A stretch of DNA of 64,000 bases from Alteromonas pelagimontana (GTDB taxonomy: Bacteria; Pseudomonadota; Gammaproteobacteria; Enterobacterales; Alteromonadaceae), in NCBI RefSeq assembly GCF_002499975.2, contig NZ_CP052766.1:3782001-3846000 (forward strand). Direction: 5' to 3'. The notes beneath the pieces are model-generated. The model saw only the letters and a list, made by a program, of their open reading frames with translations. It was not told the DNA's origin and did no database searches. Positions 756-33,935 of the stretch are shown here, in pieces (position 1 is the stretch's first letter; each line of letters begins with the position of its first letter). The position numbers and the translations under genes are program-made.

Positions 756-1961
756 TTATCCGAAAGGTAGACACTGCGGGCCAATAGGCTCGAAGGTTTT
801 GTAAGTAAGAATGAATTCCTGATGGCCGAGTGCTTCAGATTTCGTCGGTTCACCGTTAGCGACAGCCAGTACGGCGCGATAAATTTCATCGCCGATTTCA
901 TCAATGTTGGTATCTTCCTCCAGAATTCTGCCGGCGTTGATATCCATGTCTTCAGAAAGGCTGCGATAGGTCTCTGGGTTGGCGCAAACTTTTATCACCG
1001 GGGAAATGGCTGAGCCCACAACGGAGCCTCTGCCGGTGGTAAATAGAATGAGGTGTGCGCCGCAGGCAATCATTTCGACAATTTCGGCATTATCGGAAAT
1101 ATTGGGAAAGCCAAAGCGTGGCTCACCATCGGGTACCACATCCAGCAGGTAAAGCCCACCGCGGGGAGGGACATCGCCTGGCTTTATTATGCCGCTTATC
1201 TGGCTGCTGCCTGATTTACTGTATGCGCCCATACTTTTTTCTTCCTGAGTGGTTAGACCACCTTCTGCGTTGCCGGGCGCAAATGAGCCATAGCCCAGCA
1301 CTTTGTAATAGTTACTGGCTTTGTCCACGGCAGCAGTAATAATGTTACCCAGTTCAGGAGTGGCAGCACGTTCAGCCATGATCTGCTCACAACCAATTAA
1401 CTCTCCCGTTTCTTCAAAAATGCAGGTGGCTTGTTGCGCGACCAGTTTATCGAAAGATTTTCCCACTGCAGGGTTTGCTGTTATGCCACTGGTGCCGTCG
1501 GAACCGCCGCAAATCGTACCGATCACCAGCTCAGATACTGCCATAGGTTCGCGTTGCACAACGATGTGTTGTTGCAGGGCTTGTACTCTCATAATGCCGC
1601 TTTCAATCGCTGATCGAGTACCACCTTGTTGCTGAATCACCAATGTATCCACCGGACGGCCGGACCTGTGAGCCGCATCGTACAACGCTTCTCTGTTAAA
1701 GCCCTCGCACCCTAGCGACACCAGTAAAATAGCGCCAACATTGGGATGGCTGACAATACTTTGTAGCTGCTTTAAGGCGTAGTCATTCGGAAAGCAGCCA
1801 GGAAAGCCAATAAGATGGACGTCAGACTGGTCGGCTTTATCCACAATTTTGCGGGCCACATGGTGCGCACATTCCACCAGGTAACAAACTAACGTTATGT
1901 TTCTAATGCCTTTACGCCCGTCTGGACGTAAAAAGCCGCTAATCGCGGGAAGAGGTGTCAT
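756..1961 (-). CDS. UxaA-family dehydratase large domain, probable L-fuconate dehydratase
   Basis: About 401 residues matching the C-terminal catalytic domain of altronate/galactarate dehydratases (GARSVGSGI motif region GRGSVVGSAISP, ICGGSDGTSGITANPA, EETGELIG). The N-terminal SAF domain normally found in UxaA is absent; it occurs instead at the C-terminus of the preceding gene product. ATG 1961 is preferred: a good AAGGAG lies 11 bases upstream, whereas the in-frame GTG at 1970 would sit only 2 bases from it. The start lies inside the upstream gene, whose stop is at 1939, so translation is probably coupled. Between a fuconolactonase-like and a KDF-dehydrogenase-like gene the likely step is dehydration of L-fuconate. 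Most described L-fuconate dehydratases are enolase-family, so this would be a different solution; galactonate or altronate are alternatives. Confidence 0.8.
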   Translation of the reverse strand: MTPLPAISGFLRPDGRKGIRNITLVCYLVECAHHVARKIVDKADQSDVHLIGFPGCFPNDYALKQLQSIVSHPNVGAILLVSLGCEGFNREALYDAAHRSGRPVDTLVIQQQGGTRSAIESGIMRVQALQQHIVVQREPMAVSELVIGTICGGSDGTSGITANPAVGKSFDKLVAQQATCIFEETGELIGCEQIMAERAATPELGNIITAAVDKASNYYKVLGYGSFAPGNAEGGLTTQEEKSMGAYSKSGSSQISGIIKPGDVPPRGGLYLLDVVPDGEPRFGFPNISDNAEIVEMIACGAHLILFTTGRGSVVGSAISPVIKVCANPETYRSLSEDMDINAGRILEEDTNIDEIGDEIYRAVLAVANGEPTKSEALGHQEFILTYKTFEPIGPQCLPFG

Positions 1962-3101
1962 GGTTAACACTGCTCCTTGTATGGCTGGGAATGTAGTCGC
2001 TGCGCAAGTTGTTCAGATGCACATGCGCGCCTTGGGAAATATTCACTTTAGCGACGCCGATTGCCGCTCCATACTTGATAACTTTTTCCTCTTTCGCAAT
2101 GGTGTGGCGGGCGAGTTTGTGGCCTACGGCGATATCGGTTTCAATGGCTATTTCAACACCGTCGATGGTCATCACATCTCCCTTAGCAAGATTTCTACGG
2201 GCGATTAGCACGTTGTCGCGTTCATGCAGAAGAATCAGTGGGTGAGGTGCACTGTCAGGAGCAGGGCGGGCGAGGTTGTAAATTCTATGGCAATTAAGTG
2301 CAAACACAGCTTCACATTGCTTCGACGTTAATCGTTGTTGACAAAACTCAATACAAAACGTCAGCCATTGGCAATAGTTGCTTCGCTGGGTAACTACGGG
2401 CCAATCACTTCCCCATAGGATCCGATCAGCACCGAAATACTGTAACAGTAGATCCAGAAATTGTGCAGCTCCCGCTTTATTAAACGGCTCAGCCGATTCA
2501 GAGGGCAGGCCGGACATTTTAACTACCACGTTGGGATATTCTGCCAATGTTGCCATTGCTTCCCTCCAATTTTCCTGCGGCGCATTGTCTACACTGGGTT
2601 TGGCACAGTGGTCAATAATGATGGTCATTAGCGGGTAGCGTTGCGCCAGCTTAATAACAGCAGGCAGGTGAGATGAGGTCACTAGTGCATCAAACGGAAT
2701 TGCTTTGTCGCTGATAAACTGCAATACGGGGGCTAACGCCGGGTTAAGGATCCAGTTGACATCGCTAATGTCCTGCAACATGGGGCGCAGTCCCACCAGC
2801 TTTTTATTTTCTGCCAGCCGGGCGATACGTGCGATGGCATCCACAGCCGTAAAATCCGCCCATCCGACTACACCTAAAAATTGTTCAGGAAAATGTGAGG
2901 CTACGCCAAGCAGGTATTCAGTCTCAGCTTCAGTAGCAGCAGCTTGCACCAAAACACTGGCTGCGACTTGAGCTCGCTGCATTTCACTTAGTGCCTCAGA
3001 GGGGGTGAAGTCCCGATACAGTGCGCTTAAGCTCGGGGTTAGCCAATGATAGTCGCCCGGTGCAACTCCCAGATATGCAAATGGCTATCAATTATTTGCA
3101 C
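1939..3101 (-). CDS. L-fuconolactone hydrolase (amidohydrolase) fused to dehydratase SAF domain; apparent frameshift near 5' end
   Basis: The main open frame (from 2982) encodes an amidohydrolase-2 protein of the L-fuconolactonase type (DHCAKP, WGSDWPV, final barrel helix), followed after a short proline-rich linker by about 90 residues of a UxaA N-terminal SAF domain (DNVLIARRNLAKG, VHLNNLRSDYIP). The first 40 residues, including the metal-binding DSHLH motif, are in another frame: from GTG 3101, with a perfect AGGAGG six bases upstream, the reading is VQIIDSHLHIWEL, then a break near 3058-3064, after which GDYHWLTPSL continues into the long frame. One missing base, plausibly a C in CACCCGGGC, explains this. 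The GTG overlaps the upstream stop by 14 bases. As read, the enzyme lacks its HxH ligands; a sequencing error is possible. Confidence 0.8.
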
Positions 3102-4146
3102 AAAAAGCCTCCTGTAAGGAAAGATAATCTGCAGCTAAAAGATTCAGCTCCCGCAATGTTTCCCATACTTCAGTATCAATGTGCGTGTCGAAGTAGGCGA
3201 GATTTTGGCTGGCTTCTGTCAGAGAAGACATGCCGGGGACCACCGCGGTTATCACGGGGTGAGAAAGCACAAATTGCATTGCCAATGCGGCAAGAGGCAC
3301 ATTATATTCATCACAGACGGCAGCAAGGGCATTAACTTTTTGCACCACTTCAACAGGTGCAACCTGGTAATTGTAAAAAGGCGTTCTGCCGCTGCTTCCA
3401 CTGGCTAATATGCCAGAATTGTAGATGCCACCAGCGTATACTTGAATCCCTCGCTGTTGGCACTGTGTGAGTAACGGCAATGAAGCAGTGTGCTCTAACA
3501 GGGAAAACCGGCCCGCCAGCAAAATACAATCCAGTGGAAATAATCCTAATAAGGTTTGACAAGCCTCAGTTTCGTTTGCACCCACGCCGATGGCACTAAT
3601 ATCACCTGTGGCTTTTAGTTCTTCCAGTGCAAGAAATCCACTTTGTTCCAACTGCTTCATGTATTGCTGATTGTCACTACCGTGGGTGTACTCGCCAATA
3701 TCGTGGATCAGCAGAATATCGGGGTTGCGACCTAAACGCGCTATACTCCCCTCAAAGGAACGCATAATTCCCTCGTAGGAATAATCAAACTGGGCTGACA
3801 TTGGGTCGCAGTTGATAAAGCCGTCACTGCTTTTTGATGTAAACCCTGAGGAGTCAGCCTCAAGCACTCTTCCGACTTTCGTCGAGATAACCGTTCGTTC
3901 GGGAAATTGGGAACAAGAGCGAAAGACACCGCCCAACCGTCTTTCTGATAAGCCAAAACCATAGAAAGGTGCCGTGTCGATAACATTACATCCGTTTTCT
4001 AACATCGTGTGAACAATGGAAAAGCATTCCTCGTCGGTCATCGCCTTGTATAGATTACCGAAAGGCGCGCCACCCACCCCTAAACGCAAGCGTTGTGGAC
4101 GTCTTAAATACAGCGCCTCTTTATTCAAGGCGGTACTCATTGTCAT
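3088..4146 (-). CDS. Aldo/keto reductase, probable L-fucose (D-threo-aldose) 1-dehydrogenase
   Basis: About 352 residues, an AKR (beta/alpha)8 barrel of the D-threo-aldose 1-dehydrogenase type. Visible are GVGGAPFGNLY, the catalytic Asp and Tyr in IDTAPFYG, the Lys in STKVGR and the His in LLIHDIGEY. It would oxidise L-fucose to L-fuconolactone, the first step of the pathway encoded by the three genes after it. It is first in the minus-strand operon. The start is uncertain: ATG 4146 or 4140 fits the family length, and an upstream in-frame ATG at 4266 would add about 40 residues unlike the family. A 12-base palindrome lies about 40 bases upstream of the chosen start. Confidence 0.82.
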   Translation of the reverse strand: MTMSTALNKEALYLRRPQRLRLGVGGAPFGNLYKAMTDEECFSIVHTMLENGCNVIDTAPFYGFGLSERRLGGVFRSCSQFPERTVISTKVGRVLEADSSGFTSKSSDGFINCDPMSAQFDYSYEGIMRSFEGSIARLGRNPDILLIHDIGEYTHGSDNQQYMKQLEQSGFLALEELKATGDISAIGVGANETEACQTLLGLFPLDCILLAGRFSLLEHTASLPLLTQCQQRGIQVYAGGIYNSGILASGSSGRTPFYNYQVAPVEVVQKVNALAAVCDEYNVPLAALAMQFVLSHPVITAVVPGMSSLTEASQNLAYFDTHIDTEVWETLRELNLLAADYLSLQEAFCANN

Positions 4147-4181
4147 AGTGGCATAGCCCCGCTTCATCCATTCTTTTATGT

Positions 4182-4193
4182 TTTGTATACAAA
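4182..4193. promoter_or_regulatory. Perfect palindrome TTTGTATACAAA, candidate operator of the fucose operon
   Basis: A perfect 12-base inverted repeat in the AT-rich region between the fucose dehydrogenase gene and the divergent IclR gene. A related 13-base sequence occurs upstream of the fucosidase gene. Binding by the adjacent IclR protein is inference. Confidence 0.4.
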
Positions 4194-4389
4194 TGTGTTT
4201 TTTAAATATAAAATTTATTCTCTGATATGTAAACGCATTGTTAGATCTAATTTCAGAAGTTAACATGGCTGAGCGGATAACCGCGTGCTGTGACGCTTCA
4301 TGATACTAACAAAAATACTATTGAGTGCGTCCCGCACAAAGTTACGCCTTAGCATTTGATGATATGCAGAAAGGTTTGGAGATTGGTAA

Positions 4390-5211
4390 ATGCCCAAAAT
4401 AGAAAATCAGCCGCAGCAAGGTTTTAGCGATAAAGACCGGCGGGAGAGCGCCTCTTCCGAAAAAGCTTATACAGCGCCAGCGTTGGAAAAGGGCTTGGAT
4501 ATTATCGAATTACTTGCAGGCTCTGCGGAAGGCTTTAAATTAAAAGAAATGGCTAACCAGTTAGAAAAATCGGTTTCTGAAATATTCAGAATGGTGTGCG
4601 TGCTGGAACGAAGAGGATATATTCAGCTTGATGAAGAAACCGATAAGTACCGGTTATCACTCAAATTATTTGATGTAGCCCATGCTCACTCACCCATTAA
4701 GACTCTAACCGAAGTGGCTGTGGCTGAACTGGATTCGTTGACGAAAATTGTTGGGCAGTCATGCCATCTCTCGGTGCGTAATGGTATGCGCGCCGTTGTT
4801 GTCGCACAAAAAGACAGCCCCATGGATAAACTTATCACTATTCGGTTAGGGGCCTCGGCGTCTTTATTAAACTCCTGTTCGGGACATATCTTCATCGCCT
4901 TTACCAGTCGGAGCGATCATCCGGAAATATTTAAAGAAATTGAAAAGGAAATGTCACCGCAGGCGTTAAAAAGCTTGATTGACGTTGTAAAAAACCAAGG
5001 TTATGAACGTATGCTTAGCCGCCAGATTCAAGGCGTTGAAGATATCGGCTTTCCGATATTCGGGCGCGATAGAAAGTTGATTGCTTGTCTGGTGGTTCCT
5101 TACATTCATTATCTCGGTGGCTTAAATACGCTTGATATCAATACCACCATAGAAGAAGTTCGCAATTGTGCTCACCGTATCGCAATTAAACTTGGCGCTA
5201 CGAACCAATAA
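4390..5211 (+). CDS. IclR-family transcriptional regulator, probable L-fucose regulator
   Basis: A 273-residue IclR-type protein. The N-terminal winged helix-turn-helix runs roughly from residue 33 to 95 (ALEKGLDIIELL, FRMVCVLERRGYI) and the C-terminal effector domain follows (SCHLSVRNG, RQIQGVEDIGFPIFG). The ATG at 4390 has a GGAGA about eight bases upstream. It is divergent from the fucose operon and precedes the GH95 fucosidase gene, so L-fucose or a pathway intermediate is the likely effector. IclR members can repress or activate, and the sequence does not show which. Confidence 0.9.
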   Translation: MPKIENQPQQGFSDKDRRESASSEKAYTAPALEKGLDIIELLAGSAEGFKLKEMANQLEKSVSEIFRMVCVLERRGYIQLDEETDKYRLSLKLFDVAHAHSPIKTLTEVAVAELDSLTKIVGQSCHLSVRNGMRAVVVAQKDSPMDKLITIRLGASASLLNSCSGHIFIAFTSRSDHPEIFKEIEKEMSPQALKSLIDVVKNQGYERMLSRQIQGVEDIGFPIFGRDRKLIACLVVPYIHYLGGLNTLDINTTIEEVRNCAHRIAIKLGATNQ

Positions 5212-5398: not shown

Positions 5399-7807
5399 AT
5401 GTTTGGTTCCGCTTCTCTTTCACCCGTTGGTTACCGTGTGCGGCAGTTAAGCACCGCGGTGTTGTTGCTGTTACTCACAGTAACAGCAACAACCAGTGCA
5501 GCAGAAAGCTTATGGTATACAGCACCGGGAGCTGATTGGGAAAGCGAATCACTTCCTATTGGAAACGGCTTTTTAGGCGCGAGCGTGCTGGGCGGGGTGC
5601 AGCAGGAACGCATTGTTATCGCAGAAAAAACCCTGTGGACAGGGGGGCCGGGAAGCAAAGAAGGATATGTGACAGGTTTACCTAAAAATCCAGAACAATA
5701 TGCCAAAGCGTTAGCCCAAATACAGAAGACATTGCTACGCACTGGTAAGATGGCGCCTGAGGCAGTTGCAGAAAAACTAGGTCATGAACCTGGCGGATAC
5801 GGAAGCTATCAAAGGTTCGCCGATCTTATAGTGGATACTGATCACGAATTTTCTCAGATTAGCAATTACACCCGCACCCTGAATTTTGAAAGTGGAACCG
5901 CGACGGTTCAGTACGATTACCAAGGCGCCACCTATTACCGTGAATACTTTGTCAGCTACCCTGATCAGGCTTTGGCCGTGCGCCTGCACGCCAGCAAGCC
6001 AAAGCGAATGCAATTGGAAATTAGTTTGGATATTCCCGACAATCGTTCAGTAAATTGGGGCGGCAGTGAAAATCGCATCGCGGTGTCCGGAGCCTTGGCC
6101 GATAACAATCTGCAATATGTAGCCAATCTGGAGGTAGTCACCCATAACGGGAAGGTAAGTCGCCAACAAAACAAGATCATCGTCAGTGATGCAAGCGATG
6201 TCACAATGTTTTTTTTCGCAGCAACAAACTATGAGAATCATTATCCGGATTATCGTGGCGAGTCTGCTCAGCGCAACTTGAAAAACATTATTGCTTCTTT
6301 TTCTGGCGACTATGAAAAAGTCAAAAAACGGCATATTGAGGATCAGAGTGAATTATATCGTCGGGTGAATTTGGATCTAGATGCTGAAATACCCGATGTA
6401 CCTACCGATACATTACTTGCCCGTTACCAGCACGGTAATGCCTCAGCAGAGAGCACACGCGCATTAGAAGCACTGTACTATCAATACGGCCGCTATCTGT
6501 TAATTGCCTCTTCAAGGCCGGGAAGTTTGCCAGCGAATCTGCAAGGCGTGTGGAACAAACACGAACATGCACCATGGAATTCCGACTACCATTTTAACAT
6601 CAACCTGCAAATGAATTATTGGCTGGCAGATATGACTAATCTGTCTGAAACCAATATACCGCTGTTTGATTATGTAGAAAGTCTCATTCCACCGGGGCAA
6701 GAAGCCGCGAAAGCCATTATGGGCGCAAATGGCTGGACAGTATTTTTAAACAGCAATATCTGGGGGTTTAGCGGGACAATTGCCTGGCCTACGGCGTTTT
6801 GGCAGCCCGAGGCAGGAGCCTGGATTTCCCAGCATTTTTATCAGCATTACCTGTTTACGCAGGATAATAATTTTTTAAAGAATCGTGCGTGGCCCGTGAT
6901 GCGTGAAGCCACCGCTTTTTGGCTGGATGCGCTAGTAAAAGATCCAAACAGCGATACCTGGGTCGTGGTTCCCTCTTTTTCTCCTGAGCATGGCACGTTC
7001 GCGGTAGCAGCCGCAATGTCTCAGCAAATTGTGTCAGATCTATTGCGCAATACGCTTACTGTTGCCGAGCAACTGAATGAGAAGACGTGGGTAGAAAAAA
7101 TCACTCCCGTTCTCGATAAGCTTGAGCCCGGTCTTAAGATAGGAAAGTGGGGGCAGCTACAGGAATGGAGAAAAGACCTCGATGATAGAAAGTCGCATCA
7201 TCGGCATATTTCCCAGCTTTACGCGCTGTACCCGGGCAATCAAATTTCACCGGCGCAAACTCCCGAATTAGCCGAGGCTGCAAAGGTTACGCTAAACGCA
7301 AGAGGGGACGGCGGTACCGGATGGAGTAAAGCGTGGAAAATAAATTTCTGGGCGCGGCTATTTGATGGCGATAGAGCGCACAAATTACTACAAGAGCAGC
7401 TAGCCCACAGTACACTAAAAAACCTCTGGGATAATCATCCTCCTTTTCAGATTGACGGCAACTTTGGCGCAACCGCTGGCATGACTGAAATGCTTTTACA
7501 AAGCCATCTCGACAACCTCCATTTTTTACCCGCGCTTCCTGCTTCCTGGCCGGCAGGGCAGGTGACCGGTTTGAAAGCGCGCGGCAATATCCTGGTGGAT
7601 ATGAGATGGCAAGATGCAAGGCTTCAGCAAGCGACCATAAGTAGCGTGAGTGACCAACAGATTACGCTTTATCACGGCGATATGCGCGACGGTTTTCAGG
7701 TTTTAGATAGTGCTGGAACGTTGATAAAAACAAAGCTACAGGGAAATACCACCACATTTTCAGCTCAAGGTGGAAAAAAGTACGTGGTTACCCCTCACGC
7801 ACGTTAA
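5399..7807 (+). CDS. GH95 alpha-L-fucosidase, exported
   Basis: An 802-residue protein with an N-terminal signal peptide (hydrophobic run at about residues 19-32, cleavage near AAES). The GH95 N-terminal beta domain starts with the typical LPIGNGFLGASV, followed by an (alpha/alpha)6 barrel and a C-terminal sandwich. Residues corresponding to the known bifidobacterial AfcA active site are present: N400 and N402 (HFNINLQMNYW), E530 (SFSPEHG) and D686 (QIDGNFG). GH95 enzymes invert alpha-1,2-linked fucose such as Fuc-alpha-1,2-Gal on xyloglucan. It is followed by the TonB receptor, GH35 and GH31 genes. The ribosome site is weak (AAGG about 15 bases upstream). Confidence 0.93.
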   Translation: MFGSASLSPVGYRVRQLSTAVLLLLLTVTATTSAAESLWYTAPGADWESESLPIGNGFLGASVLGGVQQERIVIAEKTLWTGGPGSKEGYVTGLPKNPEQYAKALAQIQKTLLRTGKMAPEAVAEKLGHEPGGYGSYQRFADLIVDTDHEFSQISNYTRTLNFESGTATVQYDYQGATYYREYFVSYPDQALAVRLHASKPKRMQLEISLDIPDNRSVNWGGSENRIAVSGALADNNLQYVANLEVVTHNGKVSRQQNKIIVSDASDVTMFFFAATNYENHYPDYRGESAQRNLKNIIASFSGDYEKVKKRHIEDQSELYRRVNLDLDAEIPDVPTDTLLARYQHGNASAESTRALEALYYQYGRYLLIASSRPGSLPANLQGVWNKHEHAPWNSDYHFNINLQMNYWLADMTNLSETNIPLFDYVESLIPPGQEAAKAIMGANGWTVFLNSNIWGFSGTIAWPTAFWQPEAGAWISQHFYQHYLFTQDNNFLKNRAWPVMREATAFWLDALVKDPNSDTWVVVPSFSPEHGTFAVAAAMSQQIVSDLLRNTLTVAEQLNEKTWVEKITPVLDKLEPGLKIGKWGQLQEWRKDLDDRKSHHRHISQLYALYPGNQISPAQTPELAEAAKVTLNARGDGGTGWSKAWKINFWARLFDGDRAHKLLQEQLAHSTLKNLWDNHPPFQIDGNFGATAGMTEMLLQSHLDNLHFLPALPASWPAGQVTGLKARGNILVDMRWQDARLQQATISSVSDQQITLYHGDMRDGFQVLDSAGTLIKTKLQGNTTTFSAQGGKKYVVTPHAR

Positions 7808-7916
7808 GAAGGTTCGGCGACAACAGTGAAGTAGCGCCGAGTTTTGGAAAACACCGGGAGAAGTAGTAGCGGTACGCTCGGCAGTTTACATAAGATAAAA
7901 CCAAGTGGGATTACAC

Positions 7917-10733
7917 ATGAACGAGAATAAAGAAAATTTATCGATGAACAGGCCTGGGTTTCGTCGTTCCAGACTCACGCTTTGCATCGTCAGTGCGCTG
8001 GGAATGCTGATGCCGCTAACACTTAATGCCCAGGAAACTGCTGCAGAAGACGAGGACCAGGAAGTTGAAGTGATAGAAGTTTCTGGCTTACGGTCCAGTT
8101 TGGCCTCTGCCGTCAGTCGAAAGCAGTTTTCCGGGCAAATAGTCGATTCTATTATTGCTGATGACATCGGCAAGCTGCCTGATCTTAACGTGGCCGAGGC
8201 GCTGCAACGGATTTCCGGGGTGCAGATTTCCAGGAACCGGGGCGAGGGCAGCGATGTCGCGATCCGGGGTTTAACGCAGGTACGTACTGAGCTAAACGGG
8301 CGCGATATCTTTTCCACCACCGGGGGACGATCGCTTAGCTTTGAAGATGTCCCCTCCGAACTGCTTTCGGGGGTAGACGTTTATAAAAACCCATCGGCTG
8401 AACAAATTGAAGGTGGGATCGGGGGCCTGATTAACCTGCGAACGCGCAAGCCTTTCGATTCAGATGAGAGGTTAATTAGCGCCACGGCGCAAGCCATTCA
8501 ATATGATTTAAGAGATGATGTGGGTGCCAATTTATCAGGGCTCTATTCTGATCGCTGGGACACAGATTCTGGCGAGTTCGGCTTTTTGATCAATGCCTCT
8601 TTCAGCAAAACCAAATTCCGCGAAGATGCCGTTATTGTCGAACCTTTCTATACCCGCACCGATATTCCCGGTTATGAAGGTGAAGAAGTCGAAGTTGCTT
8701 CAGGCGGCGGTATCTCCGCCTGGCTCGGCGAGCGTGAACGGAAAGGTCTGGCGATGGCAGCACAATGGGCACCTAACTCAAATCTGATGATTTACTCACA
8801 GTATCTTCTGTCAAAGTATGAATTTTATGATCCGCAAACTACTATGTTTGGTTACGGTGCGGGAGAGGGCGGAACATTAGATGCTGTGGCGGGGGAGTTC
8901 AGTTTTGACGAGCAGGGCAATCTGCTCACCGGAGCTTACAACAATATACCATTGGAAACCGCTACCCGAGATGCTACCCGTAACTCAGAAACCTCAGATC
9001 TTTCTATTGGATTTGAGTGGCAAGTTTCTGGTCAGTTGGGGGTTAAGGCCGATCTGCAATATATTGATTCGTCCACTGATTATCGAGATGCTACAGGATT
9101 CGGGGGGCTAAAGGCCGGTTCAACCTTTTACATGGATCTTACCCAAGAGATCCCGCGCTATGAAGTAAGAAATACGGCTACAGACGCGGCTGATTTTTTA
9201 ACTAATCCGGATAATTATAGTTACACCGCCATGATGGCAAGATCTGCCGAGAACACAGGTGATGAACTTGCCGCCCGTACTGACCTTACCTGGGATTTTG
9301 ACCAGGGTACTATTTTCAGAACATTTACTACCGGCGCCAGATACACTACCAAAGATATTAACACTGCGGACTCAGGCTATGATTGGGCTGCAGTGTCCGG
9401 TCCTCCCTATGATGGCACCGATGAAGCAACTGCTGATTACATCGAATTCCCCGCTTATTATGCACAAGATCCTCACCAAACATCATTTTGGCGAGATGAT
9501 GGTGCACAGAATCCTTTTGGTCCGCACTTTGTGGTTGACCCTAATTTACTGGCAAATCCAGAAGAAGCGCTGGCAATATTGGCAGGGTTAAACCCACAAT
9601 CGGGTGCTGTGCCAGGCTTTACCGATAGAAACGAATTGAACTCCCAGGGCGAAGAGACAATGGCAATTTATGCAATGGTCGATTTCGGCTCAGTTGATGA
9701 TGATTTCTATGTCGGAAATTTTGGTGTGAGAGTCGTGAAAACGGACGTTACTGCTGAAGGTACGCAGACTTTAACCTATCGTTCCGCAGAAGATACCTCT
9801 ACGGATATTCAACAGCAAAGTGCAATTACCATTGAGCAAAGTTATACCGAAGTGTTACCTAGCTTTAATATTCGCTTTTTACTTACGGAACAACTGTATT
9901 GGCGACTGGCGGCTTCGAGGGGTTTATCTCGCCCCTCGTTCGATTCGCTTGCAGCTAACTTTTCTTACATTGAAAATTATATAGATGACGACGGCGATCC
10001 ATCAACACCTCCGGTTTACCGCGATAGCACCGGGACCGGCGGCAATCCGAATCTTAAGCCACTGACTGTTGACCAGTTTGATATGGCACTTGAATGGTAC
10101 TTTAGCCCAGGCGACTTAGCCTATGCAACATTGTTTCATAAGAAGGTGAAGAACTTCCAACAAAATGGGGTATATGATGCACCATTAGAAGTTCCAGGAA
10201 AAGGCACGCAGCAGTTCGAGGTTACTGCTCCGGTTAACGGGGAAAGCGGAACCATTAGAGGTTTTGAAGTCGGGATTCAGACATTTTTTGATTTCGTGCC
10301 AGCGCCCTTTGATGGCTTCGGAGTCCAAGCCAATTATACATATGTTGATAGTGAAGCACCGAGTCCTTCCGCAACAGACAGTAACGGCAATCCGCTTCTT
10401 GTGCCGCTGGAAGGGCTATCAAAAAGCAGCTATAACTTGATACTGTTGTACGACAAAGATGATTTATCTGCACGCGTAGCTTACAACTGGCGAGACGATT
10501 GGGTCATTACAACTTCTGGGAATGGCACGGGCAATTTGCCGATCTACAACAAGGATTATGGCCAACTGGATGCGTCGGTCTCCTACGATTTTACTGACAA
10601 TCTGTCCGTAACTCTCGATGCGGTTAATCTTACCGATGAGACGCGGGAAACTTATCAGGGGTTTGAAAACAGGCCTCGGGATTTTGTTTTGAACGACCGC
10701 CGGTACAGTCTGCGTTTACGTATGTCTTTTTGA
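7917..10733 (+). CDS. TonB-dependent outer-membrane receptor (probable xyloglucan oligosaccharide uptake)
   Basis: About 938 residues: signal peptide ending near LNAQE, a TonB-box-like segment (EVEVIEVSG), plug domain (IADDIGKLPDLNVAEALQRI, GVQISRN, IRGL) and a long beta barrel ending in an aromatic residue (LRLRMSF), as needed for outer-membrane assembly. ATG 7917 is favoured over an upstream in-frame GTG at 7905 because a GGGA element precedes it. Its position between the fucosidase and the galactosidase/xylosidase genes suggests transport of fucosylated xyloglucan fragments, but receptor sequence alone does not give specificity. Confidence 0.9.
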   Translation: MNENKENLSMNRPGFRRSRLTLCIVSALGMLMPLTLNAQETAAEDEDQEVEVIEVSGLRSSLASAVSRKQFSGQIVDSIIADDIGKLPDLNVAEALQRISGVQISRNRGEGSDVAIRGLTQVRTELNGRDIFSTTGGRSLSFEDVPSELLSGVDVYKNPSAEQIEGGIGGLINLRTRKPFDSDERLISATAQAIQYDLRDDVGANLSGLYSDRWDTDSGEFGFLINASFSKTKFREDAVIVEPFYTRTDIPGYEGEEVEVASGGGISAWLGERERKGLAMAAQWAPNSNLMIYSQYLLSKYEFYDPQTTMFGYGAGEGGTLDAVAGEFSFDEQGNLLTGAYNNIPLETATRDATRNSETSDLSIGFEWQVSGQLGVKADLQYIDSSTDYRDATGFGGLKAGSTFYMDLTQEIPRYEVRNTATDAADFLTNPDNYSYTAMMARSAENTGDELAARTDLTWDFDQGTIFRTFTTGARYTTKDINTADSGYDWAAVSGPPYDGTDEATADYIEFPAYYAQDPHQTSFWRDDGAQNPFGPHFVVDPNLLANPEEALAILAGLNPQSGAVPGFTDRNELNSQGEETMAIYAMVDFGSVDDDFYVGNFGVRVVKTDVTAEGTQTLTYRSAEDTSTDIQQQSAITIEQSYTEVLPSFNIRFLLTEQLYWRLAASRGLSRPSFDSLAANFSYIENYIDDDGDPSTPPVYRDSTGTGGNPNLKPLTVDQFDMALEWYFSPGDLAYATLFHKKVKNFQQNGVYDAPLEVPGKGTQQFEVTAPVNGESGTIRGFEVGIQTFFDFVPAPFDGFGVQANYTYVDSEAPSPSATDSNGNPLLVPLEGLSKSSYNLILLYDKDDLSARVAYNWRDDWVITTSGNGTGNLPIYNKDYGQLDASVSYDFTDNLSVTLDAVNLTDETRETYQGFENRPRDFVLNDRRYSLRLRMSF

Positions 10734-10791
10734 TTAAATTGGGGCCTGGGCCATTTATGCACTTGTCCAGGCCGTTTACTGGATAGACAAC

Positions 10792-11191
10792 ATGCAGCAG
10801 GATAATTTTCTTCGTCACTTTGTCATTATTGGTGGCGGAACCGCAGGCTGGATGGCTGCGGCGGCATTGAATCGTGTGCTCAAACAGCATCCGTGTCAGG
10901 TGACCGGGGTTGAATCATCCAAAATCGCTACGGCGGGAGCAGGGGAGGCGAGTATTCCCCTTATTCGACTGTTTAAGCGACTGTTGGACATAGACAAAAA
11001 GGAATTTTTGCGCGCCATTAAACGCACTTTTATGTTAGGTATCGAGTTTATCAACTGGCGCAAAGAACAGCACAACTACTTTCATCCTTTTGGGATTTGG
11101 CGCCGACATTGATGCTGTACCTTTTCATCAACATTGGCGAAAGCGCATGATACATCGTATAGCCAGCGCTTTTCTTGTGCAAGTTCGCTAG
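10792..11191 (+). pseudogene. Decayed flavin-dependent tryptophan-halogenase-like gene
   Basis: The first 107 residues match the start of tryptophan halogenases: FAD-binding IIGGGTAGWMAAAAL, AGAGEASIP, IEFINWR and NYFHPFG. At about 11095 the frame breaks; the next frame continues with FGADIDAVPFHQHW, typical of the family, and stops at 11189-11191. The remaining three quarters of the roughly 500-residue protein, including the WxWxIP motif, are missing before the next gene. Halogenase-like genes commonly accompany TonB receptors in marine polysaccharide loci, so this is a remnant of an accessory gene. It cannot encode a working enzyme as read. Confidence 0.8.
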
Positions 11192-11254
11192 CAATATGAC
11201 AAGAACCATCTTTAGTTCCTAAGCACCGGCTTTTAAGTTAAAGGATTAGACACA

Positions 11255-12991
11255 ATGAAATTAGCACCACGATTATCACTGTATTTTGCCATTGTGGTGA
11301 TTACGTCTGTTACCAGCCTTGCGGGCTGTAGTCATTCTGCAGCGGGGGCGAAAACGGCATTCCGTTCAGGGAATAATGATGCGTCTTTGCCGCGAGTGCA
11401 AAGTGAAAACGGCAGGCACCGGTTTATTGTTGATAATAAGCCGTTTCTTATTTTAGGGGCGCAAACCAACAATTCAGCAAATTATTCGGCTGCTCTGGCG
11501 GACGTGTGGCCGGTGGTTGAGAAAATGCAAGCCAATACCTTAAGTATTCCTGTTGCATGGGAACAAATCGAACCGCAAGAAGGGCAGTTTGATTTCAGTT
11601 TTCTGGACACCTTAATTGCCGAGGCAGCAGCACATAATGTAAGGCTGAATCTATTATGGTTTGCCACCTGGAAAAATAATGCGCCCCATTACGCACCTTC
11701 CTGGGTAAAGCTGGATAACCAGCGCTTTCCCAGAGTCATCACGAAAGACGGAAAAATGCTTAACTCGTTGTCTCCGCTAGGAAAGGAAACATTGGCAGCA
11801 GATAAGCGTGCATTTATGCAATTGATGAGCTACTTAAGAGATAACGATCCCGCTCATCGTGTAATTATGGTGCAGGTAGAAAACGAAGTCGGCACCTATG
11901 GCAGCAAAAGAGATTTCTCCGCCATGGCGAATACTCAGTTTAATGCGCAAGTCCCTGCAAAGCTTCGCGAGGCGATGAACCTACCTGCCGGTTCCTGGCA
12001 ACAGGTTTTCCAAGAGGATGCCGACGAATTTTTCCACGCCTGGCATATCGCTACCTACGTGGAAGAAATTGCTCAGGCCGGCAAACAAATTAAAAACTTA
12101 CCTATGAACGTCAATGTCGCGCTGCGCAATCCCTTTACGCCAGGTGATGGCTATTCCATGGGCGGTCCCACAGACAACGTTATCGACTTATGGAAAATCG
12201 CTGCGCCCAGTATTGATATGATATCTCCTGATATTTATTTTCGCGATTTTAAAACCGTTGCGCGAGTGCTCGAACTTTATTCACGGCCAGACAATCCTCT
12301 GTTTGTCGCAGAGATTGGTAACGCTGAAGGTTACGCCCGCTACTTTTTTCAAACTCTCGGTGAGCAGGGAATAGGTTTCGCGCCCTTCGGTATGGATTAT
12401 ACCGACTACGCCAATTTTCCTCTGGGAGCTAAAGCGGTCAACGATGAGGTCATTAACGCTTTTGCTGAGAATTACCGGTTATTCGCTCCAATGGCAGAGG
12501 CCTGGGCGGCGCTGAGTTATAAACATCCGGTATGGGGTTTTGCTGAACCCGATTCAGAGAAAAGTGAGGATGTGTGGAACGCCAAAGGTTCTGGCGATGA
12601 CACGGCTTCCGATAATGAAAAAGACAAGGAAGGAGCGCGTTTCACACAAACCGCCGATTTGGGTAAGTGGAACGCGGAAGTGACCTATGGCCGGGAAATG
12701 TTTTGGATAAATCCTCCCACCGGCAACGATCCTGCCTCTGGTGGCGCTGCCATCATAAAGCTGTCAGAGAATGAGTTTTTAGTGACGGCGTTTCGCGCGC
12801 GAGTCACCTTTGTGCCTTCTGATGAATTGAAGGGAACGCCGACTATGATTGAGCGGGTGGAAGAGGGGCATTTTGAGGGGCAGAAGTGGGTGTTTGAACG
12901 GGTCTGGAACGGCGATCAGACCGATTGGGGACTAAACTTTACCTCTCGTCCACATGTGTTGAAGGTCAAGATGGCTACCTATCGAAGATAG
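11255..12991 (+). CDS. GH35 beta-galactosidase lipoprotein (DUF5597 type)
   Basis: 578 residues. The signal peptide ends in a lipobox (LAGC, Cys at about residue 25), so it is a lipoprotein. The GH35 catalytic barrel shows the acid/base in VQVENEVG (E211) and the nucleophile in FVAEIGN (E353), followed by a C-terminal beta region of the DUF5597 type. In the Cellvibrio japonicus xyloglucan system a GH35 enzyme (Bgl35A) removes galactose from xyloglucan side chains after fucose is cut. Neighbouring GH95 and GH31 genes support that role here. The ATG at 11255 has AAAGGA about ten bases upstream. Confidence 0.87.
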   Translation: MKLAPRLSLYFAIVVITSVTSLAGCSHSAAGAKTAFRSGNNDASLPRVQSENGRHRFIVDNKPFLILGAQTNNSANYSAALADVWPVVEKMQANTLSIPVAWEQIEPQEGQFDFSFLDTLIAEAAAHNVRLNLLWFATWKNNAPHYAPSWVKLDNQRFPRVITKDGKMLNSLSPLGKETLAADKRAFMQLMSYLRDNDPAHRVIMVQVENEVGTYGSKRDFSAMANTQFNAQVPAKLREAMNLPAGSWQQVFQEDADEFFHAWHIATYVEEIAQAGKQIKNLPMNVNVALRNPFTPGDGYSMGGPTDNVIDLWKIAAPSIDMISPDIYFRDFKTVARVLELYSRPDNPLFVAEIGNAEGYARYFFQTLGEQGIGFAPFGMDYTDYANFPLGAKAVNDEVINAFAENYRLFAPMAEAWAALSYKHPVWGFAEPDSEKSEDVWNAKGSGDDTASDNEKDKEGARFTQTADLGKWNAEVTYGREMFWINPPTGNDPASGGAAIIKLSENEFLVTAFRARVTFVPSDELKGTPTMIERVEEGHFEGQKWVFERVWNGDQTDWGLNFTSRPHVLKVKMATYRR

Positions 12992-13020
12992 CTGGCGAAA
13001 ATTTTAAGCGTAGGAAAATA

Positions 13021-15966
13021 ATGGAGAACTATGTGAAGTCATCATTGCGATTATTCGGTGCCGCCGCGTTTACGCTATCGGCTGTTATAACGTTGTCTGG
13101 GTGCCAACCGAATCAGGTTAATAGCGCGCAGGCTGCCGAGACTAAAAATGCAGCTGCCCGTTATCAGGAAACGGCAAACGGCGTAATTGTACAACCCTCT
13201 TCAGGGGAAGCAAAACTGGTAAGGGTTGAAGTCTACCGGAATAATATTTTTCGGGTTACCAATTTACCCCACGATAATCTTGAAGCGATTGCAGAAAGTA
13301 TTCAGGTCACTGCCAAACCTCAGGGCGAATTCAGCATTTCGCAGCAAGGTGAGAAGGTGACACTTACTACGTCTGGTGGCTATGCCACCGTGGATGTGAA
13401 CAGCGGCAATGTTGCCGTTTTCAATAATCGCAATGAGCAGTTGCTGACAGAAGTAGATAGCGGCACTTTCGGGCCGGTTACCGCTGATCCGGTAACGCCT
13501 GAAAAGGACAGTTTTTCTCTGCGTCAACAGTGGAATAAAAATACTGACGAAGCGTTTTACGGGCTTGGTCAGCATCAAAACGGTGAGGTAAATTTCGCCG
13601 GTGATAATCTGGAAATGACCACCTACAATTTGGAAATTACCATTCCTCTGGTGGTGTCCAGCCGTAACTATGGCGTGTTGTGGGATAACGCTTCAGTCAC
13701 TCATTTTGGCAACCCTGAAGGTGCCGTGCCTCTGCCGGAGAACCTGAAGCTTTATGATGCGCAAGGTAAGCCCGGCGGATTAACAGCCAAATATTTCGAC
13801 GGTGATAAATTACTGCTGACCCGGGTAGAGGCCGAACCTGATTATCAGTTTTTAGCCAATAACAGTACCCGTGAACATCCTTTTCCTGATGAGTTAGGAA
13901 ACGTTACAGCGCCAAGAGTGGAATGGTCAGGAAGTATTGAATCTGACACTTCAGGTAACCATTTTTTTAGAATGTACAACAGTGGCTACGCCCAACTGTG
14001 GTTAGGCGGTGAAAAGGTACTGGACCGCTGGCGAATGAACTGGAATCCCTGGTATCACGACGTTCGCTATGAAATGACCGCAGGTAAAAAGACGGATATT
14101 CGTATTAATTGGGATTCAGAAGGTGGATATATCCGTTTAAAACACGCGCCGCCGCTTGCTCATGCTGACCAGTATTCGCTGTCGTTTGCTTCGGAATCAG
14201 GAAAAGCAATTGATTATTATGTCGTTATTGCAGAAGACTACGATGGTGTGATTCAGGGATACCGTGCCCTTACCGGCAAGGCAGTTATGTTGCCAAAATG
14301 GGCTTATGGATTCTGGCAAAGCCGGGAAAGATATCAAAACCAGCAGGAACTTGTCGACGTGGTGAAGGAGTATCGCAAGCGAAAAATTCCGCTGGATAAC
14401 ATTGTACTGGATTGGTCCTACTGGCCTGAAGATAAATGGGGCAGTCATGAGTTTGATAAGGAGCACTTTCCTGATCCGAAAAAAATGGTGGAGCAAATTC
14501 ATGATTTAGACGCGCAAATTATGATATCGGTGTGGCCCAAGTTCTACCCTAATACCAAAAATTACCAAGAGCTTGCAGCCAAAGGTTATATGTTAAGCAA
14601 AAATGTCGATAACGAGAAAAACCTCGACTGGATTGGCAAAGGTTATCTCAATGGCTTCTACGACCCGTACCCGGAAGAATCACAGCAAATCTTCTGGCGA
14701 CAAATTGAGGAAAATCTGAACGTGCTTGGTATCGACGCATGGTGGCTGGATGCCTCTGAGCCCGATATTCACTCGAACCTGTCTTTCACGAAGCGTAAGG
14801 AAATAATGACGCCGCTTTCCGTTGGCTCGGGCACAGAATATTTCAATTCTTACGCGCTACCTAATGCCGAAGGGGTTTATAAAGGTGAACGTAAAGATGA
14901 TCCTGAGAAGCGATCGTTTATCCTTACCCGTAGCGGCTTTGGCGGCATTCAGCGTACCGGGGCAGCAATCTGGAGTGGCGATACCGTTCCCCGCTGGTCA
15001 AATTTGCGCGAGCAGATAGCCGCAGGCATCAGTACTGGTTTATCGGGTATGCCGAACTGGACAATGGATATCGGCGGCTTTACGCCAGAAAATAAATACC
15101 GCAATACCAGCAACGGTTTCGTGGGGCACTTTTCTGGTCTTGAGCCTGAAGACATTCAGCCTTGGCAGGAACTGAATGTGCGCTGGTTCCAGTTTGGCGC
15201 CTTTGTGCCTTTATTTCGTTCTCACGGACAAAACCCTTACCGCGAAATTTATAATATTGCCGATGAAGGTTCCAAAGCGTACGACTCCATGGTCTATTAC
15301 ACCAAACTTCGTTACCGCCTGATGCCTTATATCTACAGCGAGGCAGGTAAACAGTATCATCAGGACGATACACTGATGCGCGGCTTAATAATGGATTTTC
15401 CTGAAGATAAATCGGTGCGCGATATCAACAATCAGTATATGTTTGGCCCGGCGTTTTTGGTCAATCCAGTGGATAAAGAAGGTGCCACTGCTCGTGAGGT
15501 TTATTTACCTGAAGGTACTAAATGGTACGACTTTTATACCGGTAAATCTTTTGATGGCGGACAGACCGTTTCGGCTGACGCCCCACTTGAACGGATGCCA
15601 TTGTTCGTCCGCGCTGGCTCAATAGTGCCTACTGGCCCGGCAATACAGACAGTTTATGAAAAACCCGATGCCCCAATACTGTTGACTATCTATGCCGGTG
15701 CCGATGGAAACTATAGCTTCTATGAGGATGATGGTAAGAGCTACGACTACGAAAAAGGCGAATTCAGCTTCACGCCCATTCGTTATGACGACAGCAACAA
15801 GCGCCTTGTCATTGGTGCCAGACAGGGGCAATTTCCTGAACAGAATAAAACGCGGAAGTTCAGAGTGCGCCTGATTCGGGGAGAACAACAGGACGCCGCC
15901 AATTTGGACGTGAAACCTGAGCATTCAATTTCCTATAAGGGTGAGGAAGTTATCGTTCAACTGTAA
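13021..15966 (+). CDS. GH31 alpha-xylosidase with inserted PA14 domain, lipoprotein
   Basis: 981 residues from ATG 13021, which follows TAGGAAAATA; an earlier in-frame codon at 12925 lies inside the previous gene. Signal peptide with lipobox LSGC. The N-terminal beta sandwich is interrupted at about residues 253-395 by a PA14 domain (TAKYFDGDKLL, FFRMYNSGYAQLWLGGEKV), then the barrel with the nucleophile in WWLDASEPD (D577) and acid/base in WSGDTVPRW (D654). This architecture is that of C. japonicus Xyl31A, an exo-acting xyloglucan-oligosaccharide alpha-xylosidase; PA14 helps bind long oligosaccharides. It probably acts after GH95 and GH35. Alpha-glucosidase activity is a less likely alternative. 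Confidence 0.9.
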   Translation: MENYVKSSLRLFGAAAFTLSAVITLSGCQPNQVNSAQAAETKNAAARYQETANGVIVQPSSGEAKLVRVEVYRNNIFRVTNLPHDNLEAIAESIQVTAKPQGEFSISQQGEKVTLTTSGGYATVDVNSGNVAVFNNRNEQLLTEVDSGTFGPVTADPVTPEKDSFSLRQQWNKNTDEAFYGLGQHQNGEVNFAGDNLEMTTYNLEITIPLVVSSRNYGVLWDNASVTHFGNPEGAVPLPENLKLYDAQGKPGGLTAKYFDGDKLLLTRVEAEPDYQFLANNSTREHPFPDELGNVTAPRVEWSGSIESDTSGNHFFRMYNSGYAQLWLGGEKVLDRWRMNWNPWYHDVRYEMTAGKKTDIRINWDSEGGYIRLKHAPPLAHADQYSLSFASESGKAIDYYVVIAEDYDGVIQGYRALTGKAVMLPKWAYGFWQSRERYQNQQELVDVVKEYRKRKIPLDNIVLDWSYWPEDKWGSHEFDKEHFPDPKKMVEQIHDLDAQIMISVWPKFYPNTKNYQELAAKGYMLSKNVDNEKNLDWIGKGYLNGFYDPYPEESQQIFWRQIEENLNVLGIDAWWLDASEPDIHSNLSFTKRKEIMTPLSVGSGTEYFNSYALPNAEGVYKGERKDDPEKRSFILTRSGFGGIQRTGAAIWSGDTVPRWSNLREQIAAGISTGLSGMPNWTMDIGGFTPENKYRNTSNGFVGHFSGLEPEDIQPWQELNVRWFQFGAFVPLFRSHGQNPYREIYNIADEGSKAYDSMVYYTKLRYRLMPYIYSEAGKQYHQDDTLMRGLIMDFPEDKSVRDINNQYMFGPAFLVNPVDKEGATAREVYLPEGTKWYDFYTGKSFDGGQTVSADAPLERMPLFVRAGSIVPTGPAIQTVYEKPDAPILLTIYAGADGNYSFYEDDGKSYDYEKGEFSFTPIRYDDSNKRLVIGARQGQFPEQNKTRKFRVRLIRGEQQDAANLDVKPEHSISYKGEEVIVQL

Positions 15967-15983
15967 ACGTGTATAACCTGAAG

Positions 15984-16004
15984 GCGGCGTTCATATAACG
16001 CCGC
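15984..16004 (+). terminator. GC-rich hairpin between the GH31 and SGNH genes
   Basis: Stem GCGGCGTT/AACGCCGC with a five-base loop, then TACTTTTG. It may terminate or only attenuate transcription, since the next gene starts 29 bases later. Confidence 0.55.
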
Positions 16005-16032
16005 TACTTTTGTTTAATTTGGAGAATAACGA

Positions 16033-17352
16033 GTGATAAGAACGATGTCTTATTCGTTTCGTTCTACAGGAATGTGTTGTGTGCTGCTTTTCGCACTGGC
16101 TGCCTGTTCCGGAAACAGTGGAAGAAGCGCAGTACAGCAAGCCGGCGAAAGTATCGTGTTATATAACAACGATACACCACAATCATGGCAGCTTTACGTT
16201 CGCAACCATGAGCAGGACATGCCGGTGAAGCATTCCGCTAACGTCGGAAACGGGATGGTAAAGCTGGACACGGTAAAAACCGACGACCGTGGTCAGGCGT
16301 TGGCGTTAGATTTTCAGGAAAGCTGGTCTTCCGGACTTTATTTTTTAGGTGAAGGAGTCAATTTGCAGCCATTTGTTGCCAACGGAATACTGGAATTTGA
16401 TATGCAGGTAGAGGCAATAGACAGAGGAATTGTCAGCGTAAGTGCTAATTGCACGCCATACTGCCATCGTCATTTTCGGTTAAGGGAATGGGCCCAGGAA
16501 AACGTAGGAAGCGGTTGGCACCATCTGGCAATCCCGGTACGTTGTCTGGTTGATCCCACAGCCGACTTATCGGCAGTTAAACGGGGATTCAATCTGGAGA
16601 CCGGCGGCAATGGCAAACTTAAAGTCGCAAATATAGCGTATCGGCGATCGGGTACTGCTAATGTCGATTGCAAAAGTGATGAACAGTTAGCGTTAACACC
16701 GGCTCCTTTAAATGAATACTGGTCGACGGATTGGTGGATGCCGCGTCATGAAGAGAAGCTTGCCCAGGCAAAAGAGCAAGACATTGAGGTTGTGATGCTG
16801 GGTGACTCGATCACGCAAGGCTGGGAAAATGGTGGTAAAACTGTATGGTCTTCCCATTTTGGCGACATTTCTACACTGAATCTGGGATTTGGCGGAGATC
16901 GCACAGAAAACGTGCTGTGGCGCTTACAACATGGTGCGTTAGATAATGTATCGCCTGAGCTGGTGGTGATAATGATTGGTACCAACAACACCGGGCATCG
17001 GCTGGACAGTCCTCAGGCAATAAGTCAGGGGGTTGCAGCAATTGTTGATAAAGTGAAAAAAGCGACGCCTGATGCTAAGGTGCTGTTACTCGCAATTTTT
17101 CCCCGTAGTGCAGAGGCAGCCGACGAGCTACGGCAAAATAATGAACAAACCAATGCACTATTAAAACAGCTTGCGAAAGAAAAGGGGGTTATGTTTGATA
17201 ATTTTAACAAGCAGTTTCTTACTGCAAATGGCGAGCTAACCACCACGATTATGCCGGATTTACTGCATCCTGAGGAAGAAGGCTACGAAATATGGGCCAG
17301 GCAACTGGAGCCCTATATTGATAAATACGTGAGAAACGACACGTCGCAGTAG
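16033..17352 (+). CDS. SGNH-hydrolase lipoprotein with N-terminal carbohydrate-binding-like domain
   Basis: 439 residues from GTG 16033, with GGAG eight bases upstream. The lipobox is LAAC. Residues about 35-215 form a beta-rich domain resembling the galactose-binding-like domain found in exo-glucanases (SSGLYFLGEGVNLQPF, RCLVDPTADLSAVKRGFNLET). The C-terminal half is an SGNH/GDSL hydrolase: S259 in MLGDSITQGW, GFGGDRTENVLWR, GTNN, and D409/H412 in PDLLHP. It most resembles PAF-acetylhydrolase-like carbohydrate esterases. Plant xyloglucan is O-acetylated, so it may remove acetyl groups from the oligosaccharides handled by this locus; this is inference. Confidence 0.8.
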   Translation: MIRTMSYSFRSTGMCCVLLFALAACSGNSGRSAVQQAGESIVLYNNDTPQSWQLYVRNHEQDMPVKHSANVGNGMVKLDTVKTDDRGQALALDFQESWSSGLYFLGEGVNLQPFVANGILEFDMQVEAIDRGIVSVSANCTPYCHRHFRLREWAQENVGSGWHHLAIPVRCLVDPTADLSAVKRGFNLETGGNGKLKVANIAYRRSGTANVDCKSDEQLALTPAPLNEYWSTDWWMPRHEEKLAQAKEQDIEVVMLGDSITQGWENGGKTVWSSHFGDISTLNLGFGGDRTENVLWRLQHGALDNVSPELVVIMIGTNNTGHRLDSPQAISQGVAAIVDKVKKATPDAKVLLLAIFPRSAEAADELRQNNEQTNALLKQLAKEKGVMFDNFNKQFLTANGELTTTIMPDLLHPEEEGYEIWARQLEPYIDKYVRNDTSQ

Positions 17353-31535: not shown

Positions 31536-32714
31536 TTACTGGCAACGCAGACGCAGCCAGTTGAATACTTCATTATGCGTCATACATAAATGATATAGGG
31601 TACTGGCGGGCATGGAAGCGTCAAGAATGTTGTTTTTTTCATCCCGACGATCGATATAATGTCCGGCACGTTCAGGGTGACGATAATGACGCATCAGACT
31701 TGATAGGGCGTTTGAGGCGTCGTTGACATAAGCATGGCTCTTGTTTTTTTCATTGGGAAACAATATTGTCATGGCCAGAGCTGCTTTCACCCATTCTGTC
31801 ATAGGCCAGCAACGTTTGGTGCCTGTAATTACCTCGCCAGTTGCAGTCACGGCGTCAAGAAGTAGGTCAGAACTTTTGCAAAGACCAATTTTGAGTGCCT
31901 GGCGATAAAGCGTAGTGCAATATTTGTGTACAGGCTTGCCAGATAGGCTCCCATATTTATACAGCAGCCATACCCATTCCATCATATGGCCGGGTTCAAT
32001 TACATGACTACGAGCGGGATCGGGTTGCCAGTTGTCAGTAAAAAATTCCCGTAGCACAGCCGCTTCTTCATCAAAAAAAACTGTTTCGAAAAGCGCGAAC
32101 ATTTCTCCGGCGTAAGCTAACCATTTGGCGTCTCTGGTGGATTCATACAACGCCATAAATGCTTCGAAAAGGTGCATGTGCGGGTTTTGCCGACGGACCT
32201 GATAGGCATAATCACCTTCTTTCCATCCTCCGCGTGAACCTTTTAATAAATGTTCAATGATGTTTATTAAATTATGGGCATTTTTCAGCGCGTGTAAATC
32301 GTGAAACACTCGATAGCGCCATGCGTAAGCCAAAAGAAAAAAGGCGCAGTCGTACAAATCTCGCGAAGTATCAATAACCTGATTTTCAGCATTTAGTATG
32401 GTGGGATAAAAACCCGGAGAATGACTTTCGGTCGAATTCGCCAGGAAACTGTCAATGCCATGCAGGATGTCACTACCTGAATCTGTCCACCCACGCGTTT
32501 GGCCGTAGCAGACGCAGAACATTTGCCGGGCTTGAACTCGAATTCGCTTGTGGCTGCGTAAATCGGGATGACCATGGGCGGTAAAGGTCTCGATGCTAGC
32601 GCCACTTGCCTCAAAACCATTGGCTAACCATACGGGAAAAACCTGTTGTCCCAGCCAATGATCATAAGCATTAGCGGCTTCAACTAAACGGCAATTGTTA
32701 ATTTTACTATTCAT
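31536..32714 (-). CDS. AGE-family sugar isomerase/epimerase, probable D-mannose isomerase
   Basis: 392 residues of the N-acylglucosamine 2-epimerase (alpha/alpha)6-barrel family: RVQARQMF, QNPHMHLFEAF, EPGHMMEWVWLL, PMTEWVKAAL. It resembles mannose isomerase or YihS-type members more than cellobiose 2-epimerases. With mannose-releasing neighbours, conversion of mannose to fructose fits. An operator palindrome lies about 50 bases upstream, and the LacI gene that probably reads it is next. The protein is cytoplasmic. Confidence 0.83.
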   Translation of the reverse strand: MNSKINNCRLVEAANAYDHWLGQQVFPVWLANGFEASGASIETFTAHGHPDLRSHKRIRVQARQMFCVCYGQTRGWTDSGSDILHGIDSFLANSTESHSPGFYPTILNAENQVIDTSRDLYDCAFFLLAYAWRYRVFHDLHALKNAHNLINIIEHLLKGSRGGWKEGDYAYQVRRQNPHMHLFEAFMALYESTRDAKWLAYAGEMFALFETVFFDEEAAVLREFFTDNWQPDPARSHVIEPGHMMEWVWLLYKYGSLSGKPVHKYCTTLYRQALKIGLCKSSDLLLDAVTATGEVITGTKRCWPMTEWVKAALAMTILFPNEKNKSHAYVNDASNALSSLMRHYRHPERAGHYIDRRDEKNNILDASMPASTLYHLCMTHNEVFNWLRLRCQ

Positions 32715-32764
32715 TCAAACGCGCTGTCGGAATTACGAGATATAGCTCAATAATACCTTAAAAA

Positions 32765-32776
32765 TGAACCGGTTCA
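32765..32776. promoter_or_regulatory. LacI operator palindrome TGAACCGGTTCA (copy 1)
   Basis: Perfect 12-base palindrome with central CCGG between the LacI gene stop and the isomerase start. Identical to the copy at 33936. Confidence 0.75.
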
Positions 32777-32792
32777 ATTCTTAACTGTAATG

Positions 32793-33785: not shown

Positions 33786-33935
33786 AAAAGTTCCTTTGTT
33801 TCTAAAGCCAGTGCACGCACTATACCTGACAAACGACATATGGGAATAGTGATTAAGATACCAATGGCTAACGGAGATATTCTCGAATTTTTAGAAAATA
33901 TTTGTAGGTAAAAAGGTTATATTTTACTTGAATTG

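Follow-up and report, generated by a model that had tools for sequence, protein, structure and literature searches.

An L-fucono-lactonase fused in frame to the SAF subunit of a putative two-chain L-fuconate dehydratase

The closest described counterparts of the system studied here belong to the UxaA/GarD superfamily, for which section 8 of PMC6336799 reports a heteromeric L-fuconate dehydratase from Paraburkholderia mimosarum (A19U_RS0100650/0655) that was assigned from gene context, names four conserved cysteines for the two-chain dehydratases and presents the sulfolactate sulfo-lyase SuyAB as a heteromeric member. According to passages of PMC9100392, the fucose locus of C. jejuni encodes Cj0482 (88 aa) and Cj0483 (389 aa) as the halves of an altronate-hydrolase-like protein, and Cj0483 is dispensable for L-fucose use in this organism, which counts against the explanation that we favour below. 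The steps of the non-phosphorylating L-fucose pathway are outlined in parts of PMC11199699. A published fusion between a lactonase and a SAF domain was not found among the open-licence papers listed for the topic, an earlier report elsewhere being possible, and the main text of PMC4921024, which surveys gene fusions in metabolism, contains no lactonase, altronate or fuco.

Gene content of the locus and structure of the fusion

The window, the whole stretch of 64,000 nucleotides that was analysed (G000:C1:3782001-3846000), is part of the 4.31 Mb, single-contig genome of Alteromonas pelagimontana. On its minus strand the reading order begins with an aldo/keto reductase (AKR, 3088-4266), for which the real start is possibly internal to the listed frame. 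It is followed by the fusion frame (1939-2982), then by a UxaA-type gene without SAF (756-1970) and finally by an SDR dehydrogenase (24-752). Pfam and the source names of its relatives make the AKR a probable L-fucose or D-threo-aldose 1-dehydrogenase, and from Pfam and context the SDR probably catalyses the 2-keto-3-deoxy-L-fuconate dehydrogenase step; an SDR adjoins the large subunit in four other loci as well (L066, L085, L073 and L161). The plus strand carries a divergent IclR-type regulator (4390-5211) and, as pathway context, a GH95 enzyme (5399-7807) and a TonB-dependent receptor (7905-10733), all identified by Pfam, GH95 being the family of alpha-L-fucosidases. By its content the locus is a non-phosphorylating L-fucose cluster. 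Two further regions of the window may be mentioned: from 5399 to 17352 the GH95 and receptor genes, a GH35/42-like gene with DUF5597, a GH31 gene with PA14 and a GDSL esterase gene follow each other and resemble a locus for a polysaccharide containing fucose, and two GlcNAc-2-epimerase-like genes, a GH130 gene, a sodium symporter and a LacI regulator (31536-38293) look like a mannoside utilisation cluster.

The fusion gene encodes 347 aa from an ATG at 2982, in a frame that is open from 3084 and free of stops over 381 codons. Within this single open frame Pfam detects Amidohydro_2 at residues 3-237 (E 3.3e-40) and SAF at residues 256-327. The first part (2272-2982, minus strand), an L-fucono-lactonase of the COG3618 type without its N-terminus in this frame, is closest by sequence to 4dlf (E 5.1e-26); NF052480 was scored on this truncated fusion only and gave 150.7 bits, under its equivalog cut-off of 400. 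The second part (1987-2235, minus strand) is a SAF domain of the UxaA/GarD type, as found in the small subunit of the dehydratases; it is closest to the altronate hydrolase 3k3s (E 4.7e-14) and matches positions 3-84 of the galactarate dehydratase profile. As an intact relative we modelled P0011 with AlphaFold (pLDDT 89, pTM 0.74), whose lactonase part resembles 4dlf with a TM of 0.90 and whose SAF part resembles 3k3s with a TM of 0.94-0.96, both by target length.

The two parts are connected by a junction of about 12 residues (2236-2271, minus strand). In a codon scan the stretch from the end of the lactonase (..HRIYNLARPAPDSAPH) to the core of the SAF (LILLHERDN..) proved free of in-frame ATG, GTG and TTG, the earliest in-frame start codon past the junction being a GTG within DNVLI, so that the lack of an internal start, as stated in the original prediction, is correct for the window copy. 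This junction can be aligned with those of 23 other fused proteins, its linker being four residues longer than most.

The beginning of the lactonase and the remainder of its gene do not share one frame. A short frame from a GTG at 3101 (VQIIDSHLHIWEL; 3039-3101, minus strand) contains the lactonase start including DSHLHIW and overlaps the end of the AKR gene, and a single one-base frame break at about 3055-3066 splits it from the remainder, which the original prediction had missed. The ATG at 2982 falls inside the barrel, and the homology extends upstream to about 3066. DxHxHxW is the N-terminal metal motif of the COG3618 L-fucono-1,5-lactonase, and it is out of frame in the window copy and in frame in all 41 other listed fusions. 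As the break cuts off this motif, the lactonase half of the window copy may be dead or mis-sequenced; judged from its sequence, the copy could still make the SAF part, and an active lactonase is probably not to be expected. For an identical protein of 347 aa a contig of 3,376,110 bases is given, and for the large subunit two contigs, the longest having 4,314,189 bases, which hints, and no more than hints, at a second assembly sharing the frame break.

The SAF-less partner and the distribution of the fusion

The gene following the fusion (756-1970, minus strand) starts with a GTG at 1970, overlapping the end of the fusion frame, or alternatively with an ATG at 1961, which would give the 401 aa of P0121. 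Pfam finds only GD_AH_second and GD_AH_C in it, confirming that the neighbouring gene is SAF-less, and SAF was found in none of the 120 large subunits listed. A SAF small subunit is nevertheless present beside the large subunit of the window, as part of the fusion. The cysteines 34, 59, 88 and 154 of the large subunit are kept in all ten aligned rows and, from their order and spacing, probably correspond to the four published ones.

As the Pfam SAF model is weak here and failed to detect the SAFs encoded separately in G531 and G197, we built a small-subunit model from four SAFs, which recovers the free-standing SAF genes in G744, G531 and G197, the last of these lying outside the model. Both G000, the genome of the window, and G733, which belongs to another family, have two GD_AH_C genes, one for a one-piece enzyme and one for a SAF-less protein, and in both of them the matches of the four-SAF model are limited to the fusion and to the SAF within the one-piece enzyme, with no further small-subunit SAF. 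The second UxaA-type gene of G000 (G000:C1:2287916-2289397) is this one-piece enzyme with its own SAF in a frame of 520 codons. In the large-subunit tree, which was calculated from chosen rows, the four one-piece enzymes used sit on a distant branch, and a SAF split off a one-piece enzyme within this clade is ruled out by the same tree. The partner of the fusion thus belongs to the two-gene dehydratases and is not, as had been proposed, half of a normally single enzyme; in this branch of UxaA, SAF is usually a separate small-subunit gene.

Such a separate gene is found in several relatives. L085, from G744 of the same family, shows the order AKR, lactonase, SAF, large subunit and SDR, the GTG of the SAF overlapping the lactonase stop out of frame; its lactonase equals that listed as P0042 (Alteromonadaceae bacterium BrNp21-10). 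The same order with SAF as its own gene is kept in L073, and the SAF of G531 has its own ATG. In other loci SAF and the large subunit are placed before the AKR or behind it, or form one chain. In G1086 (L041/L163) the TGA of the lactonase is followed by a short in-frame stretch that looks SAF-like by eye and is perhaps the remnant of a lost fusion; another SAF is located behind the AKR elsewhere in this genome.

Lactonase and SAF occur together in 42 of 120 proteins listed from 6318 matches, namely in that of the window and in 41 others, with carriers named as Steroidobacter, Peristeroidobacter and Sphingopyxis. The four SAF motifs are present in 41, 42, 42 and 42 of these 42 fusions. Of the 42 linkers 26 could be parsed by script, and 15 of these 26 contain an internal Met, as does the fusion of G733, so a free SAF could also arise there. 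The precomputed domain column shows SAF for only four of the 42 proteins, that of the window included, so that the SAF is easily overlooked in annotation; where proteins with SAF behind a lactonase or an AKR carry a source name, this is mostly amidohydrolase, L-fuconolactonase, aldo/keto reductase or D-threo-aldose 1-dehydrogenase. The label 'unfused' for listed proteins means that SAF is absent, some of them being encoded on short contigs and possibly cut.

The genome sets that we searched comprised 59, 369, 398, 397, 150 and 196 genomes and overlap, and in the last four of them the matches read for a fusion are those returned as loci. Most lactonases read are unfused: the 137 locus rows, which include one plasmid, reduce to 116 distinct lactonase places, of which two were fused, those of G000 and G733, and among the 59 genomes of the genus the fusion was found in this one only. 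In G733 the fusion is followed by a large subunit without SAF and by an SDR, and no AKR was found within the 16 kb read there. The search for amidohydrolase-SAF fusions next to a SAF-less UxaA, which had been suggested with the original prediction, revealed recurrence also in another family, the SAF-less partner beside the fusion having been seen in G000 and G733. Five plasmid records cover at least 80% of P0011, and pAB510a of Azospirillum, the one read, has a lactonase followed by a one-piece enzyme and no fusion. A contig scan gave two spirochaete loci that match only SAF and the large subunit.

Taking these data together we are largely confident that the fusion joins an L-fucono-lactonase to SAF as the small subunit of an L-fuconate dehydratase that is of the UxaA/GarD type and made of two chains, and that it docks on the large subunit in a shared complex, where docking, substrate and complex are what we infer rather than observe. 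The SAF part would dock on the adjacent SAF-less large subunit and complete the dehydratase, and the lactonase would thereby ride on it, so that the complex would carry two consecutive steps of non-phosphorylating L-fucose oxidation. L-fuconate as the probable substrate is assigned from the context of GH95, AKR, lactonase and SDR. A bifunctional lactonase-dehydratase complex is thus a likely prediction; a direct hand-over of the aldonate between the two sites, as also suggested originally, would be conjectural.

Repeated fusion of SAF and its possible causes

SAF was also found fused to the AKR. In G1086 it is in frame with the AKR, and the neighbouring genes encode a large subunit without SAF and an SDR; the AKR is clear in Pfam and the SAF stays below the cut-off (17.2 vs 21 bits), the small-subunit model detecting it at 1.3e-34. 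An ATG at this junction leaves room for a separate SAF start. The AKR-SAF frame (L161:2880-4166), with an AKR of the L-fucose dehydrogenase type, adjoins a SAF-less large subunit. Among 120 proteins listed for this frame from 8000 matches 97 contain SAF behind the AKR, the carriers including Sphingobium, Sphingomonas, Novosphingobium and Phenylobacterium. Seven other loci of this family (L181, L189, L198, L200, L202, L204 and L206) have an independent SAF gene behind the AKR, read in a different frame. As the same SAF is fused to the lactonase and to the AKR, the subunit appears to join whichever pathway enzyme precedes it, and the most economical reading is a common rule by which the small subunit became attached, on several occasions, to the pathway enzyme encoded before it. 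The tethering of lactone hydrolysis to dehydration, as originally suggested, remains plausible in light of these results and is not specific for the lactonase. If SAF must meet the large subunit in order to work, each fusion would also link the dehydratase with either the lactonase or the dehydrogenase.

To follow the history of the fusion, a first lactonase tree was calculated from 103 rows, including 27 of the 78 listed unfused proteins and 34 hand-chosen loci, in which 35 fused rows form one starred clade. For the tree of the lactonase domain 71 of these 103 rows were kept, long branches and near-copies being dropped, and here the fused label changes six times, five of the changes being forced by starred branches. 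When the 23 fused rows are constrained to one clade, the likelihood falls by 146 log units (p-AU 9e-57), and a single ancestral fusion event is rejected by this AU test. The lactonase of the window is sister to the unfused L085/P0042 (100/99), in agreement with the large-subunit tree, where that of the window groups with P0124, P0122 and L085/P0135 (97/98) and apart from that of G733. The changes may be gains or losses, several gains being the likelier reading of the tree because the unfused rows are spread over it. A quick AKR tree of 88 rows, which took 54 of the 97 AKR fusions and from which P0317 was left out as probably truncated, shows six changes of the fused label, four of them forced; the SAF tree is too short for placing the SAF of the window. 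The repeated change of the fused state and the fusion of SAF to two different preceding enzymes are what is new here.

These changes would also fit a neutral fusion of neighbours, in which an adjacent SAF gene was joined by small indels and the product was tolerated, SAF working despite the extra N-terminal mass, with neither channelling nor a selected complex. The overlap in L085, where a SAF start already lies out of frame on the lactonase stop, and the fusion to either upstream neighbour, lactonase or AKR, point in this direction, and we regard the neutral reading as a serious possibility that falls only a little short of an even chance. On the other hand some fused groups are large, as seen from the starred clade of 35 rows and the 97 listed AKR-SAF proteins, the fusions in the small sample of loci read involve only enzymes of this pathway, and in L183 and L187 no other Pfam domain is seen in the long frames that precede SAF. 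Going beyond the bifunctional complex, the small subunit might act as docking adaptor of an L-fucose oxidation metabolon that, fused to AKR or lactonase, would join three consecutive enzymes and hand on the lactone or the aldonate within the complex, which we consider a rather doubtful extension.

Another explanation would be a frame artefact or a decaying gene, the fusion and the N-terminal break both resulting from an indel or sequencing error in a separate pair. The frame break near the gene start, the separation of lactonase and SAF by a frame change at the same place in the nearest relative and the occurrence in one of the 59 genomes of the genus would agree with it. The 381 codons without a stop, the alignment of the junction with 23 other fused proteins and the fusion in G733 stand against it, as does the lack of an obvious split pair among the neighbouring genes and 20 further frames of the window in a Pfam scan that was not systematic, making this explanation improbable. 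A mere artefact of the junction is excluded by the 41 other listed fusions, the junction alignment and G733, and the single open frame together with these 41 proteins confirms that the predicted fusion is real. From the case that had been named as refuting it, a separate SAF gene does exist in L085, whereas conservation of the fusion elsewhere makes it unlikely that a frame error produced the junction. It is highly improbable that SAF serves the lactonase as a domain for sensing or binding and that the large subunit acts by itself, since this SAF is closest to that of UxaA/GarD in sequence and fold, is encoded next to a large subunit lacking SAF and takes the place of the separate small subunit with the gene order unchanged, even if SAF domains occur in other proteins and the Pfam model matches further frames in these genomes.

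That one small subunit was fused repeatedly to two different enzymes encoded before it suggests that enzymes of sugar-acid catabolism associate physically, which is testable as fused and unfused versions exist in nature.

Comparison with known systems

By description, not by sequence, the enzyme of P. mimosarum is similar to that of the window, as section 8 of PMC6336799 gives it as a two-chain member of the UxaA/GarD superfamily with L-fuconate as substrate by context; the same section describes its small subunit as an own gene, whereas that of the window is fused to the lactonase. Cj0482/Cj0483 of C. jejuni, likened again by description rather than sequence from passages of PMC9100392, differ from the window in having a free SAF half. 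SuyAB catalyses a different reaction from the putative dehydratase. To our knowledge SuyAB is not fused to a preceding enzyme. The L-fucono-1,5-lactonase of COG3618 (4dlf/4do7), reportedly described by Hobbs in 2013, resembles the lactonase part (TM 0.90 for the relative P0011) but has no SAF. One-piece UxaA and GarD (6u7l) consist of the same three domain types, but combine them in a single chain.
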